From contig JAFTPK010000010.1 of NCBI GenBank assembly GCA_017463325.1, forward strand, positions 1 through 64,000: 64,000 nt of DNA. Reading direction: 5' to 3'. The first letter of the stretch is position 1. Each line of letters begins with the position of its first letter. The notes below the pieces were generated by a model. It searched no databases. It was given only the letters and a program-made list of their open reading frames with translations, and was not told where the DNA came from. This DNA comes from Clostridia bacterium (GTDB lineage Bacteria; Bacillota; Clostridia; Christensenellales; Borkfalkiaceae). Below, in pieces: positions 1,671 through 64,000 of the stretch. A program made the position numbers and the translations under genes.

Positions 1671-1832
1671 GCGACGTAACTGAATATTTTAAGATGAAGT
1701 ATACTTCTGGGTAGAAGTGTACCTTTTCGCGTTTACATAAATCTTTGTCTTAAAGTATTCTTATGGTTGCGTCGCGGCAAAGCGGAAAAACACTTTTATC
1801 AGTGCTGTCTGTTTTGCAGGCGGCACTTTTTT
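1671..1832 (+). ncRNA. Structured leader RNA (copy A) ending in a terminator, candidate riboregulator
   Basis: The outer stem GCGACGTAAC (1671-1680) pairs with GTTGCGTCGC (1766-1775). A central 10-bp hairpin (1699-1708 with 1713-1722) contains the conserved GGGTAGAAGTGTA. The conserved CTTTTCGCGTT follows, then GTCGCGGCAAAGCGG after the outer stem. CACT (1791-1794) can pair with AGTG (1801-1804), which is also the 5' arm of the terminator AGTGCTGTCTG/CAGGCGGCACT + T6 (1801-1832). Copy B lies at 62294-62468 before another lipoprotein gene, with compensatory changes. It matches no riboswitch class I know; control of the downstream lipoprotein by attenuation is inferred. Confidence 0.7.
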
Positions 1833-1859
1833 CATTTATACGAAAACGGAGGTACTTCT

Positions 1860-4800
1860 ATGAAAAGAAGGAAACTTTACATATCTATTTTACTTGGGCT
1901 TTGCTTGTGCTTATTCACGGCATTCTTTACGGCTTGTAAGGAAGAAACGCCCCCTGCGCCCACGCTGGAAAGTATCAGTGTTTCGGGCGAAACGGAAGCC
2001 TTTATCGACGAATTTGACTATGCGGACTACACCATCACGGCAACATATAGCGACGATTCCACGAAAACGGCAACCTTGACCGCAGAAAACCTGTCTGCGG
2101 AAGATAGCGCCAAGCTTTCCACCGTCGGCACGCACGCTTTGACGGTAAGCTATGAAAGCGTGACCTGCTCTTGGACGATTACCCTGAAAAATCACGACTT
2201 CGCAGGGCTGACATTTGACGACGTGACGACGACCTACGACGGAACGGCAAAAACGCTTGCCGTTGCGGGCGCACCTGCGGGCGCGCAAGTGTCCTACGAT
2301 AAGGCAACAAGCTACACGAACGCAGGAGAATACACCGTCAAGGCAACCATAACCCTTGCAAACTACAACCCCGTTGAATTGACGGCAACGCTCACTATCA
2401 ATAAAGCAGTTTATGATATGAGCGCGGTTGTCTTTGCGGATAAAACCGTGACCTACAACGGGCAAGCGCACTCTATTGAAGCAACGAACCTGCCCAACGG
2501 AGTGACCGCACAATACACGGGCAATAACCAAATTAACGCTGGCGAATATGAAATAACGGCAACGTTCACAGGCGACAGCGCAAACTACGAGCCGATTGCA
2601 AGCCAAACGGCAACGCTCACTATCAACAAGGCAACCTACGATATGTCGGGTGTTCGCTTTGAAAACACCGAAGCGACCTATGACGGGCAAACGCATTTCG
2701 TAACGGCAACGGGCTTGCCGAGCGGTGTTTCCGTGGATTGGGAGAATAATGGAAAAGTCAACGCCGACACGTACACGGTAACGGCGAAGTTTACGGGCGA
2801 TAGCACGAATTACAACGCAATCCCCAACCAAACGGCAACGCTCACTATCCACAAAGCAACGATAACGGGGATAACCTTTACGGGTGCAGAATATACCTAC
2901 GACGGCACGGAAAAATCGCTTGCTATTGCGGGAACGCTCCCCAACGGCGTGACCGTTTCCTACGACAAGGAAACGAGCTACACGAACGCAGGCGAATACA
3001 CGGTTACGGCAACGTTCTCGAAAAACGCGAACTACAACGACCTTTCGGATATGCAAGCGACCTTGAAAATCAACAAAGCCACCTACGATATGTCGGGCGT
3101 GGTGTTCAAGGACAAGAGCGTAAACTACACGGGCGAAGCATATTCAATCGAAGCGACTAACTTACCCGAAGGCGTTTCGGCAACCTATGATGGGAACAAT
3201 CAAACGCAAGCAGGAGAATACACGATAACGGCGCATTTCACGGGTGATAGAGCGAACTATAACGCAATTCCCGATATGACGGCGAAACTCATCATCAGCG
3301 CAAGCGACTTGACGGGCATTTCTTTCCACGACGGCGAATTTACCTACGACGGCACGAAAAAATCTATCTATATTACGGGTGAACTTCCCGAAGGCGTGAA
3401 AATAGATTACACGAATAACGAACAAATCAACGCAAATTCCTATACCGTCACGGCGACGTTCACTTGCACAAACGGCAACTACACTAATCTGCCCGAGTTG
3501 ACGGCAACCTTACTCATCAACAAGGCAACCTATGATATGACGGGCGTGGTGTTCAAGGATAAGAGCGTGAATTACACAGGCGAAGTCTATTCCCTTGAAG
3601 CAACCAACCTGCCCAACGGCGTGACGGTTGACTACGAGAATAATGACCAAACGCAAGCAGGTGAATACACCGTAACGGCGATTTTCACGGGTGACAGCCA
3701 AAACTACAATGCAATCCCGAATATGACGGCGAAGCTCACTATTAGCGCAAGCGACTTGACGGGCATTTCCTTCCACGACGGCGAATTTACCTATGACGGA
3801 ACGAAAAAATCTATCTTCATCACGGGAACGCTCCCCGAAGGCGTGACGGTTGACTACACGAATAACGAACAAATCAACGCGGATTCCTATACTGTCACGG
3901 CGACGTTCACTTGCACGAACGGCAACTATACGAACCTGCCCGAATTGACGGCAACGCTGACCATTAAGAAAGCTGTTTACGATATGAGCGCGGTTGTCTT
4001 TGAAGATAAAACCGTGACCTATGACGGGCAAACGCACTCTATCGAAGCCACGAACTTGCCCCAAGGCGTGACCGCACAATACACGGGCAATAAGCAAAGC
4101 AACGCGGGCGAATATGAAATAACGGCAACGTTCAAAGGCGATAGCGCAAACTACGAGCCGATTGCAAGCAAGACGGCAACGCTGATTATCAAGAAAGCCG
4201 TTTACGATATGAGCGCGGTTATCTTTGAAGATAAAACCGTGACCTATGACGGGCAAGCGCACTCTATCGAAGCAACGAATCTGCCCCAAGGCGTGACTGC
4301 CGAATACACGGGCAATAAGCAAATTAACGCTGGCGAATATGAAATAACGGCAACGTTCACGGGCGATAGCGCAAACTACGAGCCGATTGCAAGCCAAACG
4401 GCAACGCTCACGATTAAACAGCGCGAACTTACGCTTGCGTTTAACGGCGAAACCACGCTCAAATATAACGGCAACGTGCAAAAAACGATTACCGTCCAAG
4501 CGACCAACCTTGTGGACGGCGACAGCGTGGAACTGACGGTAAGCTATAACGGCGCAATGATAGAAGCGGGAGAATATATCGCCACCGCTACTTTGACAGC
4601 GCACCAAAACTACAAGCTCACGGCAAACAACACGGTGAAAGTGACGATTACCCGCGCCACGCACACGGTAACGTTCAAGCAGGACGGCTTTGCGGAAGTT
4701 ACGCGCGAAGTGCTTGACCTTGCCGATTTGACAGATATTCCCACGCCCCAACACGTGGACGGCTATACGTTCACGTGGAATAGAACGGATTTTACAAGCA

Positions 4801-7800
4801 TAACGGAAGATATCACCGTCACGGCAAATAAAACGGTTATCACTTATACGATTGAATACGTTGTGTATGACGGCGTAAACAGCGAAAGCAACCCTACCGC
4901 GTACACGGTGGAAAGCGCAACGTTCACGCTCAAAAATCCTACGCCAAGCGAAGCGTTCGGTAAATCGTTCGACGGTTGGTTCACTTCGCCTGATTTCACG
5001 CTTGATAGCAAAATCACGAAGATAGAAAAAGGCTCGTTCGGCGATTTGAAGCTGTATGCGTATTGGCTCGAATACCGCGTGACGGAAGTGGTCGGCGGTA
5101 CGGTGGACTATTCGCAAGCCACGCCCGAAATCACGATTAAGGTAGACTATGGAACGGCGAACCTTGCCGTGAAAGACTTAATTTCCGTCAGCGACGGTTG
5201 CACGTGGAAGCTTTATAACGGCTTTGAGTGTTTGCCCACGCAGGAACTCACGGCAAAACGCCTTTCCGTGTCGAATATCGGGGATAATATCTTCTATATT
5301 CTCGTTTATCACCCCGATAGCGACGAATACTATACCGACTACGTTTTGAACGTGTATCAGCTCGATATGAAAGCCTATACGTTCTTGAAAGACGGCGAAA
5401 CTTGGGCAAGCGGTGAAATGCAAGAAGAATCCGCGCTCAACGCACCCGAAAACCCCGAAAAGACGGGCTACACCTTCAACGGTTGGAAAGTGAACGGTGA
5501 ATTTGTTTCCTTCCCGTACACCGTTTTGACGGATACCACCTTTATAGCAGGGGGATTTACGCTCATTACTTATATCGTTTCGTATGAATTGAACGGTGGC
5601 GAAAACGACGAAAGTAATCCCGAAACGTACAATATCGAACAGGCATACACGTTGAAAAAACCGACGAGAACGGGCTACGATTTCAAGGGTTGGTTCACAG
5701 AAGAAACGTTTGATAATCAAGTGACGGAAATTACACTTGGTTCGTATGGCGATAAGAAATTCTACGCGAAATGGACTCCCACCGTTTACATGATTGCCTA
5801 TGAATTGAACGGCGGAGTGAACAACGCCGAAAACCCCGAAACTTATACCATTGAAACGGAAACAATAACGCTAAAAACGCCGACCAAATCGAATTACGAT
5901 TTCAAAGGTTGGTTCGCGGAGGAAACGTTTGATAATCAAGTGACGGAAATTGCGCTTGGCTCGTATGGCGATAAGAAATTCTATGCGAAATGGATGCCTA
6001 CGGTTTATACGATTGAATATGAATTGAATGGTGGCGAAAATGACGAAAGTAATCCTGAAACTTATACCATTGAAACACCAACAATCACGCTTGGCAACCC
6101 GACGAGAGCAGGCTATACGTTCAAGGGTTGGTTCACGGAAGAAACGTTTGAAAATCAAACGACGGGAATTGCGCTCGGCTCGTACGGCGATGAAAAATTC
6201 TATGCAGAATGGACGGCAAATCTCAATACGCTGAAATTCGACGGCAACGGCGCAACGGATGGTAGCACGGCTGAAATGGGCATTTACACTGACGAAACGG
6301 CAACGCTTGCGACAAACGAGTTCTTAAAGGATTACTATCATTTTATCGGTTGGGCTTTAACCCCTAACGGTGAAGTTGAATATGCTGACGGTGCTGAATA
6401 TACAATGGGAACGGAAAGCGAATATACCCTTTATGCAGTTTGGGAGTATGGGACGAACGGCATAGAATACACCCTTTCCAATGACGGAACTTGTTATACG
6501 GTTAGCGGATATTCTGGAACGGAAACGGACGTTAAAATTCCTTCGGTGTATAATGGTATTGCAGTAATTTCTATTGAAGAAGAAGCATTTTACAAGGACG
6601 AAGCCAAGACGGGAACGGACGGAAATCGCGAAGAATTTCAGCAAATGTTGCAGGAAGCGAATTTAGGGTTGTTCGACGTCGTAATCGTCCACCGTTGGGA
6701 TAGATTCGCGCGAAACGTGGAGCTTGCTTTGTCGGCGCAAAAACAGCTTGAAAGAATAGGCGTTAAGGTCATAAGCACGGTGGAGAACTTCGACGATACC
6801 CCCGAAGGCGACTTCTTCAAGCTGATGAGTATGGGTATGGCGGCGTTGTATAGCAAACGGCTTTCCCGTGAAGCGTTCAACGGGCAAATCGAAAACGCGC
6901 AAAAAGGTAAGGCGCACGGCGGCGTTCCCCTTTACGGGTATGAAGTGGTAAATAAAAAATACCGCATAGTCCCACACGAAGCGGAAGCGATAAGGACAAT
7001 GTTCCAAATGGTCGCGGACGGTTATTCTTACAAGCAAACGGTCAACTATCTCAACGAAAAAGGCTATCGTCGGCGGGACGGCAGACCGTTATCGTATAGC
7101 ATAACGGACACTCTGCGAAATCGGCAATACGTTGGCGAATACGTGTTTAATCAATACAAACGCAAGCCTGCTCATAAATGGCGCACGCAAAAGAAAACGG
7201 AAAACGAAGTCGTGCGGATTCAAGGCGGTATGCCCGCTATCGTGGACGAAGAACTTTTTGAACGGGTACAAGCCCTGTTGGATAAGCGAATGCAAAAGAA
7301 CGGGCGCGGACGGAAAAAGGGAAAATATCTCTTGTCGGGGTTAATGGTTTGCGGTGTATGCGGCTATGCAATGGGCGGCGGTAAAACAATGCCACGCGGA
7401 AAGCCGTTTTTCACTTATACTTGCAATGCAAAATATCACTTACAGGCAAGAAAAAGCATAAACGTCGTTTATTTGGATAAATACGTGGTGGGCTTGTTCA
7501 CGCAAGCCTTTTTGCTTGTGCGGAATATGGAAAACGTAATCGAGCTAATACGGCAAGACATAGCGGCGCAGCACGATGAAAAGGTACAGCGGCTGAAAGT
7601 CTTGAAAAAAGAATGGGAAGAAAAGCAAGCACTTCTTGTCAGCTTGGAGGAAATCGAGCAGAGAAATAAAGGCAAAGCCCTTGCCACGTTGATTGAAAAC
7701 AACCGCAAGGAAGAACAACAGGCATTGGACGAATTGGCGGGGAAAATTGCGGAATTGCAAGCAAAGCGCACGACTACGCCACGCGTGAACAGGGAAACGT

Positions 7801-8099
7801 TGCGCCGAAATATGCGCGAATACAAGACTGCGTTGGAAGGCATTGACTTCTACAAGAAACAGGAAATTCTGCAAACGCTTGTGGAAGAAATCAAAATCGG
7901 CGCGGACACGGTGGAAACGACAATCAATCTGCACGAGCTTGCAGGAATAGAACAGCCGTTGACCTGCACCGTCATAGAGAAGTTGGAGAACGTAAGACGG
8001 GTTTATAATCTACGCGGAATGGACTTCGACTTCAAGGAAATGACGATACGCGCGGGCTATAAACGGGAAAATCCTGAACTTCAAGGGGGTGAAAAATAA
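1860..8099 (+). CDS. Chimeric frame: MBG/Listeria-Bacteroides repeat lipoprotein fused to the C-terminal part of a serine recombinase (2079 aa)
   Basis: Residues 1-26 form a lipoprotein signal (lipobox FFTAC, Cys26). Next come about ten MBG-like immunoglobulin repeats of 70-80 residues with ATYDMSGVVF, YDGQ.HSIEATNLP and NAGEYT motifs, then several Listeria-Bacteroides repeats (GYDFKGWF, KFYAKW), then the start of a BspA-type leucine-rich repeat. Near 6586-6600 the frame changes character within AFYKDEAKTGTDGN and becomes a large serine recombinase: end of the resolvase domain (DVVIVHRWDRFARN), recombinase domain, zinc ribbon (MVCGVCG) and coiled coil. The catalytic N-terminus with its Ser is absent, and an exported recombinase makes no sense. 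The lipoprotein half may be expressed from the leader RNA; the recombinase half is probably a remnant, or the join is an assembly chimera. The start ATG has GGAGG 8 nt upstream. Confidence 0.75.
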   Translation: MKRRKLYISILLGLCLCLFTAFFTACKEETPPAPTLESISVSGETEAFIDEFDYADYTITATYSDDSTKTATLTAENLSAEDSAKLSTVGTHALTVSYESVTCSWTITLKNHDFAGLTFDDVTTTYDGTAKTLAVAGAPAGAQVSYDKATSYTNAGEYTVKATITLANYNPVELTATLTINKAVYDMSAVVFADKTVTYNGQAHSIEATNLPNGVTAQYTGNNQINAGEYEITATFTGDSANYEPIASQTATLTINKATYDMSGVRFENTEATYDGQTHFVTATGLPSGVSVDWENNGKVNADTYTVTAKFTGDSTNYNAIPNQTATLTIHKATITGITFTGAEYTYDGTEKSLAIAGTLPNGVTVSYDKETSYTNAGEYTVTATFSKNANYNDLSDMQATLKINKATYDMSGVVFKDKSVNYTGEAYSIEATNLPEGVSATYDGNNQTQAGEYTITAHFTGDRANYNAIPDMTAKLIISASDLTGISFHDGEFTYDGTKKSIYITGELPEGVKIDYTNNEQINANSYTVTATFTCTNGNYTNLPELTATLLINKATYDMTGVVFKDKSVNYTGEVYSLEATNLPNGVTVDYENNDQTQAGEYTVTAIFTGDSQNYNAIPNMTAKLTISASDLTGISFHDGEFTYDGTKKSIFITGTLPEGVTVDYTNNEQINADSYTVTATFTCTNGNYTNLPELTATLTIKKAVYDMSAVVFEDKTVTYDGQTHSIEATNLPQGVTAQYTGNKQSNAGEYEITATFKGDSANYEPIASKTATLIIKKAVYDMSAVIFEDKTVTYDGQAHSIEATNLPQGVTAEYTGNKQINAGEYEITATFTGDSANYEPIASQTATLTIKQRELTLAFNGETTLKYNGNVQKTITVQATNLVDGDSVELTVSYNGAMIEAGEYIATATLTAHQNYKLTANNTVKVTITRATHTVTFKQDGFAEVTREVLDLADLTDIPTPQHVDGYTFTWNRTDFTSITEDITVTANKTVITYTIEYVVYDGVNSESNPTAYTVESATFTLKNPTPSEAFGKSFDGWFTSPDFTLDSKITKIEKGSFGDLKLYAYWLEYRVTEVVGGTVDYSQATPEITIKVDYGTANLAVKDLISVSDGCTWKLYNGFECLPTQELTAKRLSVSNIGDNIFYILVYHPDSDEYYTDYVLNVYQLDMKAYTFLKDGETWASGEMQEESALNAPENPEKTGYTFNGWKVNGEFVSFPYTVLTDTTFIAGGFTLITYIVSYELNGGENDESNPETYNIEQAYTLKKPTRTGYDFKGWFTEETFDNQVTEITLGSYGDKKFYAKWTPTVYMIAYELNGGVNNAENPETYTIETETITLKTPTKSNYDFKGWFAEETFDNQVTEIALGSYGDKKFYAKWMPTVYTIEYELNGGENDESNPETYTIETPTITLGNPTRAGYTFKGWFTEETFENQTTGIALGSYGDEKFYAEWTANLNTLKFDGNGATDGSTAEMGIYTDETATLATNEFLKDYYHFIGWALTPNGEVEYADGAEYTMGTESEYTLYAVWEYGTNGIEYTLSNDGTCYTVSGYSGTETDVKIPSVYNGIAVISIEEEAFYKDEAKTGTDGNREEFQQMLQEANLGLFDVVIVHRWDRFARNVELALSAQKQLERIGVKVISTVENFDDTPEGDFFKLMSMGMAALYSKRLSREAFNGQIENAQKGKAHGGVPLYGYEVVNKKYRIVPHEAEAIRTMFQMVADGYSYKQTVNYLNEKGYRRRDGRPLSYSITDTLRNRQYVGEYVFNQYKRKPAHKWRTQKKTENEVVRIQGGMPAIVDEELFERVQALLDKRMQKNGRGRKKGKYLLSGLMVCGVCGYAMGGGKTMPRGKPFFTYTCNAKYHLQARKSINVVYLDKYVVGLFTQAFLLVRNMENVIELIRQDIAAQHDEKVQRLKVLKKEWEEKQALLVSLEEIEQRNKGKALATLIENNRKEEQQALDELAGKIAELQAKRTTTPRVNRETLRRNMREYKTALEGIDFYKKQEILQTLVEEIKIGADTVETTINLHELAGIEQPLTCTVIEKLENVRRVYNLRGMDFDFKEMTIRAGYKRENPELQGGEK

Positions 8100-62258: not shown

Positions 62259-62287
62259 TTGACAAAACGGGCGAAAACTGCTACAAT
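62259..62287 (+). promoter_or_regulatory. Promoter of the second lipoprotein leader RNA
   Basis: TTGACA (62259-62264), 17-nt spacer, extended TGC-TACAAT (62279-62287). Predicted start about 62294, at the first base of the outer stem, exactly as in copy A. Confidence 0.8.
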
Positions 62288-62293
62288 AGAATT

Positions 62294-62468
62294 GCGACCA
62301 AACTGAATAAAAGCCATTTGAGCGAAATATACTTCTATGGGTAGAAGTGTATCTTTTTCGCGTTACAATTTTCGTGAAGATGGTAATTGTATTTTCAGTT
62401 TGTGTCGCAGCAAAGCGAGAAAGGCATTTTTACGGGTGCCGTTCCGTTTTGCAGGGCGGCACTTTTTT
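62294..62468 (+). ncRNA. Structured leader RNA (copy B) ending in a terminator, candidate riboregulator
   Basis: The outer stem GCGAC + AAACTG (62294-62305) pairs with CAGTTT + GTCGC (62396-62408). The central hairpin ATACTTCT/AGAAGTGTAT encloses ATGGGT, then CTTTTTCGCGTT, as in copy A. After the stem comes GTCGCAGCAAAGCGAG. GGCA (62423-62426) can pair with TGCC (62437-62440), the 5' arm of the terminator GTGCCG/CGGCAC + T6. In copy A the same position is CACT/AGTG, so both outer stem and anti-terminator covary. The promoter, leader and lipoprotein layout is the same as at 1671. Confidence 0.7.
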
Positions 62469-62496
62469 GTTAAATAAATAGAAGGAGATACATATA

Positions 62497-64000
62497 ATGA
62501 AAAAAACAAAAAAACTCTTAACTGTTTTCCTTACCCTTGCGCTTGTCGGTGCGGCGGGCGCTTTGGCGGCTTGCGGGCATACCCATGAATACACGGCGGC
62601 GGTGACCGAACCTACCTGTACGGAGGAAGGCTATACCACGTACACTTGCGAGTGCGGCGACAGTTACGTGGACGGCAATACGGCTGCGCTTGGGCACGAA
62701 TTTACGGAGTACGTATCGGACGGAAACGCAACGTACGATAGCGACGGCACGAAAACGGCGCATTGCAACAGAACGGGCTGCGAGGCGACGGATACCGTAA
62801 TCGAAGAAAATACAAAGCTTGACAGCCGCATTGTCTTTAAAACGCTGACCTGCGAGGGGCAGACGGCAGGGGCGGTCTTTTCCAACGCAACGACGGAATT
62901 TTCGTTTAAAGACGAAATCGAGGTTTGTGGAAACGTAACCTTTGAGGTTTCTAAGGACGAGTACGGCTCGCAGATTTATTTAACGAAAAAGGTTCCGCTT
63001 GCAGAGGGGGATAACGTATTTTACGTATTCGAGATCGAGGGCGAGGATATGACGAGGTACACGGTGACGTTGCGGCGTAGACCTATGTACACGGTGGCGT
63101 TTAATACAAACGGCGGCGAGGCAGTCGAAAGTCAGACGGTTGAAGAGGGCTGTTTGGCAAGCGAGCCAACTACGACGAGAGTAGGCTACACCTTTGCGGC
63201 ATGGGAATACGATTTTACTGAGCCGATCACGGGAAATACCACGATCGAGGCGAAATGGACAGCGAATGAGAACACGGCGTATAAGGTGGAATATTATTTG
63301 CAAAATGTTGACGGGAACGGTTTTACGCTTGCAGAGGAGGAAACGGAAAGTTTGACGGGCACGACGGACACGACGGCGAGCGCGGAAATCAAGGAGTTTG
63401 CACATTTTACGGCAAGGACAGAGAGCGTAACGGGCAATATCAACGGCGACGGCTCAGCCGTTTTAAAGGTATATTACACGAGAAATCGGTATGAAGTGAA
63501 AACGAGCGGCAATAACGATTTGGCGGGAGAGTATACGAGAGTCGACAGAAATTGTTATTACGAAACGGAAATAACGGTAACGGCGACAACGAATTTGGGG
63601 TACACTTTCGTCGGTTGGTATGTAGGGGAAATGCTTGTGTCTAATGAGGCAGAGTTTTCCTTTACGACGCAAGCGGATATGGAGTACATAGCGAAATGGA
63701 CGGCGAATGAGGAAATGCAACCGTTTACTTTCATTTCTACGGCGACTACTTGTTCTATTACGGGCTTGAATGACAAAACGGCGACGGAAATTGTAATCCC
63801 CGACTATGTAACGAGTATCGGTTGGAGGGCGTTCAGTGGTTGCAGTAGCTTGACGAGTGTGGTAATTCCCGACAGCGTAACGAGTATCGGTTATGAGGCG
63901 TTCTCTGATTGCAGTAGCTTGACGAGCGTGGTAATCCCCGACGGTGTAACGAGTATTGGTTATGAGGCGTTCTATAATTGCGAGGGTTTGACTGGGGTAT
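62497..64000 (+). CDS. Repeat lipoprotein with Listeria-Bacteroides and BspA leucine-rich repeats, 3' end outside the window
   Basis: A lipobox LAAC (Cys26) is followed by HTHEYTAAVTEPTCTEEGYTTYTCECGDSYVDG, a short Cys-containing module frequent in gut Clostridia surface proteins, then Listeria-Bacteroides-like repeats (VAFNTNGGEAVESQTVEEG..GYTFAAWEYDF; VEYYLQNVDGNGF) and, from about residue 428, BspA-type leucine-rich repeats (IPDYVTSIGWRAFSGCSSLTSVVIPDSVTSIGYEAF). No stop before 64000. GAAGGAG precedes the ATG. It is a surface adhesin-like protein; domain order and leader are the same as in the lipoprotein half of the gene at 1860. Confidence 0.88.
   Translation, partial: MKKTKKLLTVFLTLALVGAAGALAACGHTHEYTAAVTEPTCTEEGYTTYTCECGDSYVDGNTAALGHEFTEYVSDGNATYDSDGTKTAHCNRTGCEATDTVIEENTKLDSRIVFKTLTCEGQTAGAVFSNATTEFSFKDEIEVCGNVTFEVSKDEYGSQIYLTKKVPLAEGDNVFYVFEIEGEDMTRYTVTLRRRPMYTVAFNTNGGEAVESQTVEEGCLASEPTTTRVGYTFAAWEYDFTEPITGNTTIEAKWTANENTAYKVEYYLQNVDGNGFTLAEEETESLTGTTDTTASAEIKEFAHFTARTESVTGNINGDGSAVLKVYYTRNRYEVKTSGNNDLAGEYTRVDRNCYYETEITVTATTNLGYTFVGWYVGEMLVSNEAEFSFTTQADMEYIAKWTANEEMQPFTFISTATTCSITGLNDKTATEIVIPDYVTSIGWRAFSGCSSLTSVVIPDSVTSIGYEAFSDCSSLTSVVIPDGVTSIGYEAFYNCEGLTGV

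Follow-up and report, generated by a model that had tools for sequence, protein, structure and literature searches.

Two leader RNAs in a 64,000-nt stretch of Clostridia DNA (the window, meaning the whole stretch analysed) belong to an apparently uncatalogued family of folded RNAs that is widespread in Clostridia. They probably represent a new, riboswitch-like class of cis-acting transcription attenuators, in which a folded domain captures a short tail and terminates transcription. The class appears to be new; its kind, the terminator-type attenuator, is already known. Rfam 15 lacks the class, whose switching design is clear and which occurs in at least 49 Clostridia genera; in gut bacteria that have been sampled well, riboswitch-like orphan classes numbering hundreds of members have become uncommon. 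The leader offers a defined RNA with which to screen ligands, and a way into surface regulation in uncultured gut Clostridia.

Anatomy and structural evidence

Both leaders lie on the forward strand, at 1671-1832 (copy 1) and 62294-62468 (copy 2), and run from a promoter through a terminator to a lipoprotein ATG, as the initial annotation of this DNA had proposed. The conserved order from 5' to 3' is promoter, P1, a UUAAUA-like internal bulge, P2, P3, J3/2, P2', P1', tail, terminator and ATG. The layout given in that annotation holds; it had missed the long variable P2 between P1 and P3, the part of GCAAAGCG in the antiterminator and putative pseudoknot, and how far the family extends. P1, P2, P3, the promoter, the terminator and the antiterminator are established by covariation, conservation or folding energy.

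The promoter of copy 1 (1636-1664) consists of a -35 box TTGACG (1636-1641), a 17-nt spacer and an extended -10 box TGCTAAAAT (1656-1664), and the RNA starts at about 1671. Its folded domain (1671-1775), which is supported by folding energy and covariation, comprises P1 (1671-1680 with 1766-1775), P2 (about 1682-1699 with 1743-1760), the P3 hairpin (1699-1722) and the J3/2 strand (1723-1742). The switching tail GGCAAAGCGGAAA follows (1776-1788) and contains the 5' strand of the antiterminator (1777-1786); the 3' strand is the loop side (1808-1817) of the intrinsic terminator (1801-1832), which was recognised from sequence and whose T-run ends at 1832. By complementarity, the J3/2 segment UUUUCGC (1724-1730) is the proposed pseudoknot partner of the tail, which would supply the 3' strand. 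The SD sequence (1848-1852) and the regulated gene, starting at ATG 1860, span 1848-8099.

In copy 2, the promoter (62259-62287) carries a -35 box TTGACA (62259-62264) and an extended -10 box TGCTACAAT (62279-62287), and the RNA starts at about 62294. The folded domain (62294-62408) contains P1 (62294-62309 region with 62396-62408), P2 (about 62313-62327 with 62374-62384), P3 (62327-62352) and J3/2 (62353-62374), the latter including the putative pseudoknot strand CUUUUUCGC (62353-62361). The switching tail AGCAAAGCGAGAAAGG (62409-62424) provides the antiterminator 5' strand (62410-62417), and the intrinsic terminator, supported by sequence and fold, occupies 62435-62468 with its T-run ending at 62468. 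The SD sequence and regulated gene (62483-64000, ATG at 62497) continue past the end of the window.

In both copies, the RNA start lies about 7 nt after the extended -10 box. None of 200 shuffled sequences was as stable as either folded domain (z -7.4 for copy 1 and -7.3 for copy 2); the predicted fold is the terminator state in copy 1 and the antiterminator state in copy 2. The copies are alike in promoter, P3, J3/2, tail and terminator, and their P2 sequences are unrelated. The claim that different bases maintain the outer stem in the two copies was confirmed in the sequence. That the leaders are just a recent duplication is ruled out, because P2 differs throughout and the same architecture spans 49 Clostridia genera.

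Across the family, the -10 box stands at a fixed distance ahead of the RNA in all 98 members. P1 begins with TGCGAC at the start site and P1' ends with GTGTCGC; P2 varies in sequence and length, the latter over a range of about 7 nt. P3 frequently contains a U-G wobble and has a GG-containing loop, J3/2 reads CUUUUCGCGUUACAUAAAUC in group A and CUCUGUUUU in group B, and the tail is GCAA followed by GCGAAA (group A) or UCGGAG (group B). Conservation is highest in P3 and in the single-stranded J3/2; the invariance of P3 in alignment A2 is partly by construction, because the A2 sequences were found by a P3 pattern; matches of the covariance models R1 and R2 (see below) relax this invariance.

Covariation was evaluated in two MAFFT alignments, A2 and A4, that were not fitted to structure. 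P1, P2 and P3 covaried above all of 500 shuffles on every measure in A2, and P1 and P3 above nearly all shuffles in A4 (0/500 on four measures, 2/500 on one). The same helices also exceeded all slid registers in the respective alignments. Covariation was likewise above shuffles and slid registers in A5, an alignment of 44 distinct rows fitted to the model and biased as such towards structure; P1 pair 4, for example, is GC in 31 rows, CG in 7, AU in 4 and UA in 2. Covariation, strong in P1, supports the folded domain; such support is a hallmark of riboswitches.

Distribution and relation to catalogued RNAs

Searching with the P3-hairpin pattern yielded ten further genuine relatives. A covariance model from twelve sequences (R1) matched 40 of 57 genus genomes (E <= 0.1), 54 of 151 family genomes representing 12 of 18 genera (E <= 0.01), and 31/297 order genomes and 25/291 class genomes (E <= 0.001). 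The second model, R2, was built from twenty class-level members (group B) with the window's lineage left out; it recovered the two copies of the window with E-values of 2.3e-6 and 2.8e-6, which are rough for these models because calibration was short, and matched 83 of 391 class Clostridia genomes in 49 of 223 genera. The relatives and covariation that the initial annotation had suggested seeking were found, as the covariance models returned hundreds of covarying relatives. Genomes carry up to at least 8 copies, a lower bound because 8 candidates per genome were scored in the R2 class search. In a phylum-wide draw of 348 genomes, no match at 1e-4 was obtained except in the window's own genome, and this draw therefore also serves as a specificity control.

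Most of the distant neighbourhoods examined consist of ordinary chromosomal genes, and the plasmid search gave short, chance-like matches only. A phage element was considered and rejected: the first short viral pattern matched mostly by chance, stricter viral patterns gave 3 and 0 contigs, no PHROG family matched the small proteins encoded downstream, and scoring viral loci with R2 left a single true copy. This copy (84 bits; L198, 7138-7264) lies in a 45-kb viral contig (IMGVR_UViG_3300035427_000106) and is surrounded by genes that look phage-like by eye. A group B leader is also matched, at 79%, by two records from human faeces that carry the label Bacteriophage sp. At seven loci (L274, L278, L282, L284, L285, L272, L283) the RNA occurs in tandem, with copies about 90 to 800 bp apart; in most cases every copy has a promoter and terminator of its own and a single gene follows.

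The initial annotation knew of no riboswitch with this core, and Rfam 15 bears this out: at gathering score, the window and 20 diverse distant relatives gave no leader match, only tRNAs, and a permissive E-value search below the gathering threshold returned nothing beyond chance-level matches. A description of the motif was not found in the open-access literature. Fremin and Bhatt (2021; PMC8040213) presented a large list of candidate RNAs from the human microbiome, filtered against Rfam, and the main text of that paper does not mention such leaders. Because relatives of the leader occur in human faecal contigs, the list could include group B members under a number.

A tail with two alternative partners

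In the proposed mechanism, transcription would start at GCGAC and P1-P2-P3 would fold first. The short tail just 3' of P1 (GCAA...) could then pair with either of two partners. With the terminator loop it would form an antiterminator, allowing RNA polymerase to read through into the gene; captured by the J3/2 loop in a pseudoknot beside the conserved P3 hairpin, it would let the terminator form. We infer that the captured state is the off state, and a signal that stabilises it would turn the gene off.

The first pairing is sequence-specific. In the window, the tail pairs with 1808-1817 in copy 1 and with 62445-62452 in copy 2, and across members the tail pairs much better with the loop and 5' part of its own terminator than with the equivalent segments from other members (z 7.0, n = 55 and z 7.2, n = 44 in the two groups); none of 5000 permutations matched the own pairing, and the control pairing of J3/2 with the terminator gave z -0.8 and 0.2. 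In several members, the 3' strand of P1 also matches the terminator 3' arm, with antiterminators of up to 14 bp (L062, L064). Fold predictions, which leave out pseudoknots and kinetics, placed 54 members in the terminator state and 42 in the antiterminator state. The predicted cost of freeing the tail has medians of 2.0 and 2.2 kcal/mol, the two states being nearly isoenergetic, and with the tail held unpaired the terminator forms in 94 of 98 members. Because the antiterminator pairing is sequence-specific and the states are nearly isoenergetic, terminator and antiterminator are predicted to be mutually exclusive, a further hallmark of riboswitches.

The second pairing is likely. The tail is complementary to J3/2 in nearly all members, through UCGC/GCGA in group A (all that some members keep), CUCU/GGAG in group B and CUUUGG/CCGAAG in L084. 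Permuting J3/2 and tail within groups revealed an association at a flanking position only (p 0.007); both strands are nearly fixed within a group and the permutation therefore has little power, which is why we call the pseudoknot likely rather than shown. Since P2 varies by about 7 nt, capture of the tail would need flexibility or a hinge.

Regulated genes, candidate signals and alternative readings

Both genes behind the window copies encode surface-type lipoproteins, as had been claimed: Pfam assigns MBG_3 and Flg_new repeats to the copy 1 product, and Flg_new repeats and a BspA-type LRR region to that of copy 2. In the window's lineage most leaders stand before lipoproteins: 47 of 55 are followed by an SD-preceded ORF and 36 of these 47 ORFs have a lipobox, compared with 4 of 31 background ORFs of the window. 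The proposed tie to BspA/MBG lipoproteins does not hold for the class as a whole; behind distant members lie genes for small cytosolic proteins or for other secreted proteins, or no clear ORF. In group B, an SD-preceded ORF stands behind 28 of 43 leaders, encoding either small proteins of recurring unknown families or secreted proteins that by eye are BspA-like, Cu-amine-oxidase-N-like, DUF6273-like or RCC1-like. The small group B proteins tested matched no Pfam or PHROG family. Some third of the group B copies lack a clear ORF immediately behind them, in part because such copies open a tandem pair and lead into the second.

These ORF-less and tandem copies would fit a trans-acting small RNA, namely the terminated transcript of about 160 nt, with the downstream gene being secondary. 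This is improbable given the SD-preceded ORFs at a consistent distance (35-135 nt) in 47/55 and 28/43 cases and a covarying antiterminator that makes no sense for a dedicated sRNA. Still less credible, to the point of being dismissed, is a mobile or repeated DNA element, carrying a promoter and a terminator, of which the leaders would be copies. In its favour, genomes hold many copies, duplicates in tandem share their flanks (L284), serine recombinase genes lie close to copies in L272 and L278, the copy 1 gene is fused to one, and one copy is on a phage-like contig; yet copies are very rare in virus contigs, and copies within one genome differ in the whole of P2 with the pairing kept. Compensation within P1, P2 and the antiterminator, seen across 49 genera, calls for selection acting on the RNA, and we rejected a mobile repeat on this P2 divergence and covariation.

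An attenuator remains the preferred reading. The genes it controls have no metabolic theme in common, and this suggests that the signal is either a signalling molecule or a protein. Tentatively, and with somewhat less than even confidence, we propose a Clostridia-wide riboswitch class that would sense a signalling molecule new to RNA sensing in these hosts and control surface lipoproteins and small orphan proteins as a dispersed regulon, the antiterminator strand being captured by a long-range pseudoknot. The leader RNA would then bind a ligand, a small molecule rather than a protein. That the same attenuator is instead regulated by an RNA-binding protein recognising the P3 hairpin and the J3/2 strand is rather doubtful: P3 and single-stranded J3/2 are indeed the most conserved parts, and genes without shared metabolism are as compatible with a regulon under protein control as with a signalling ligand, but of the antiterminator protein families tested the genus has none or almost none (CAT_RBD 0/57, ANTAR 3/57).

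As in terminating riboswitches, a conserved folded domain lies at the 5' end, a switching strand is probably common to the domain and the antiterminator, and an intrinsic terminator is followed by an SD sequence and ORF, often in tandem arrangement; unlike these, the leader matches none in Rfam 15 by sequence or structure, and its genes lack a common metabolic pathway. In Clostridia, the c-di-GMP-I and c-di-GMP-II riboswitches (RF01051, RF01786) occur in multiple copies and govern regulons of surface and secreted proteins. The leader shares this kind of regulon but not an Rfam match, and c-di-GMP is disfavoured as the signal because GGDEF, the mark of proteins that make c-di-GMP, is nearly absent from RNA-carrying genomes: it was found in 4 of 57 genus genomes and in 1 of the 40 that carry the RNA (G028; absent in 39), all counts coming from incomplete MAGs. 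In LicT/BglG (CAT_RBD) and ANTAR antitermination, a leader hairpin likewise competes with a terminator and a bound factor decides, but the genus has no such proteins or hardly any. CAT_RBD occurs in 0/57 genus genomes, the same search being positive in 4 of 14 control genomes; ANTAR occurs in three, the window's own genome not among them, and its 0/14 in the controls is uninformative. The known RNA sites of both systems are far smaller than the leader RNA.

Three recurring families of unknown small proteins (about 60-80 aa) are encoded directly behind group B leaders from different families, at L083, L243, L254 and L094; at L086, L084, L257 and L283; and at L080 and L093. Around window position 6590, inside the copy 1 gene (1860-8099), the lipoprotein is cut short of its BspA-type C-terminus and continues in frame as a C-terminal serine recombinase, which is without the start of the resolvase domain; the LRR region is kept in the homologues in L018 and L023. 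The fusion may be genuine, may mark an integration or excision, or may come from the assembly. Genes that by eye are serine-recombinase-like also adjoin RNA-controlled secreted-protein genes in L272 (7078-8715) and L278 (10893-14173), and recall the fused copy 1 gene of the window.
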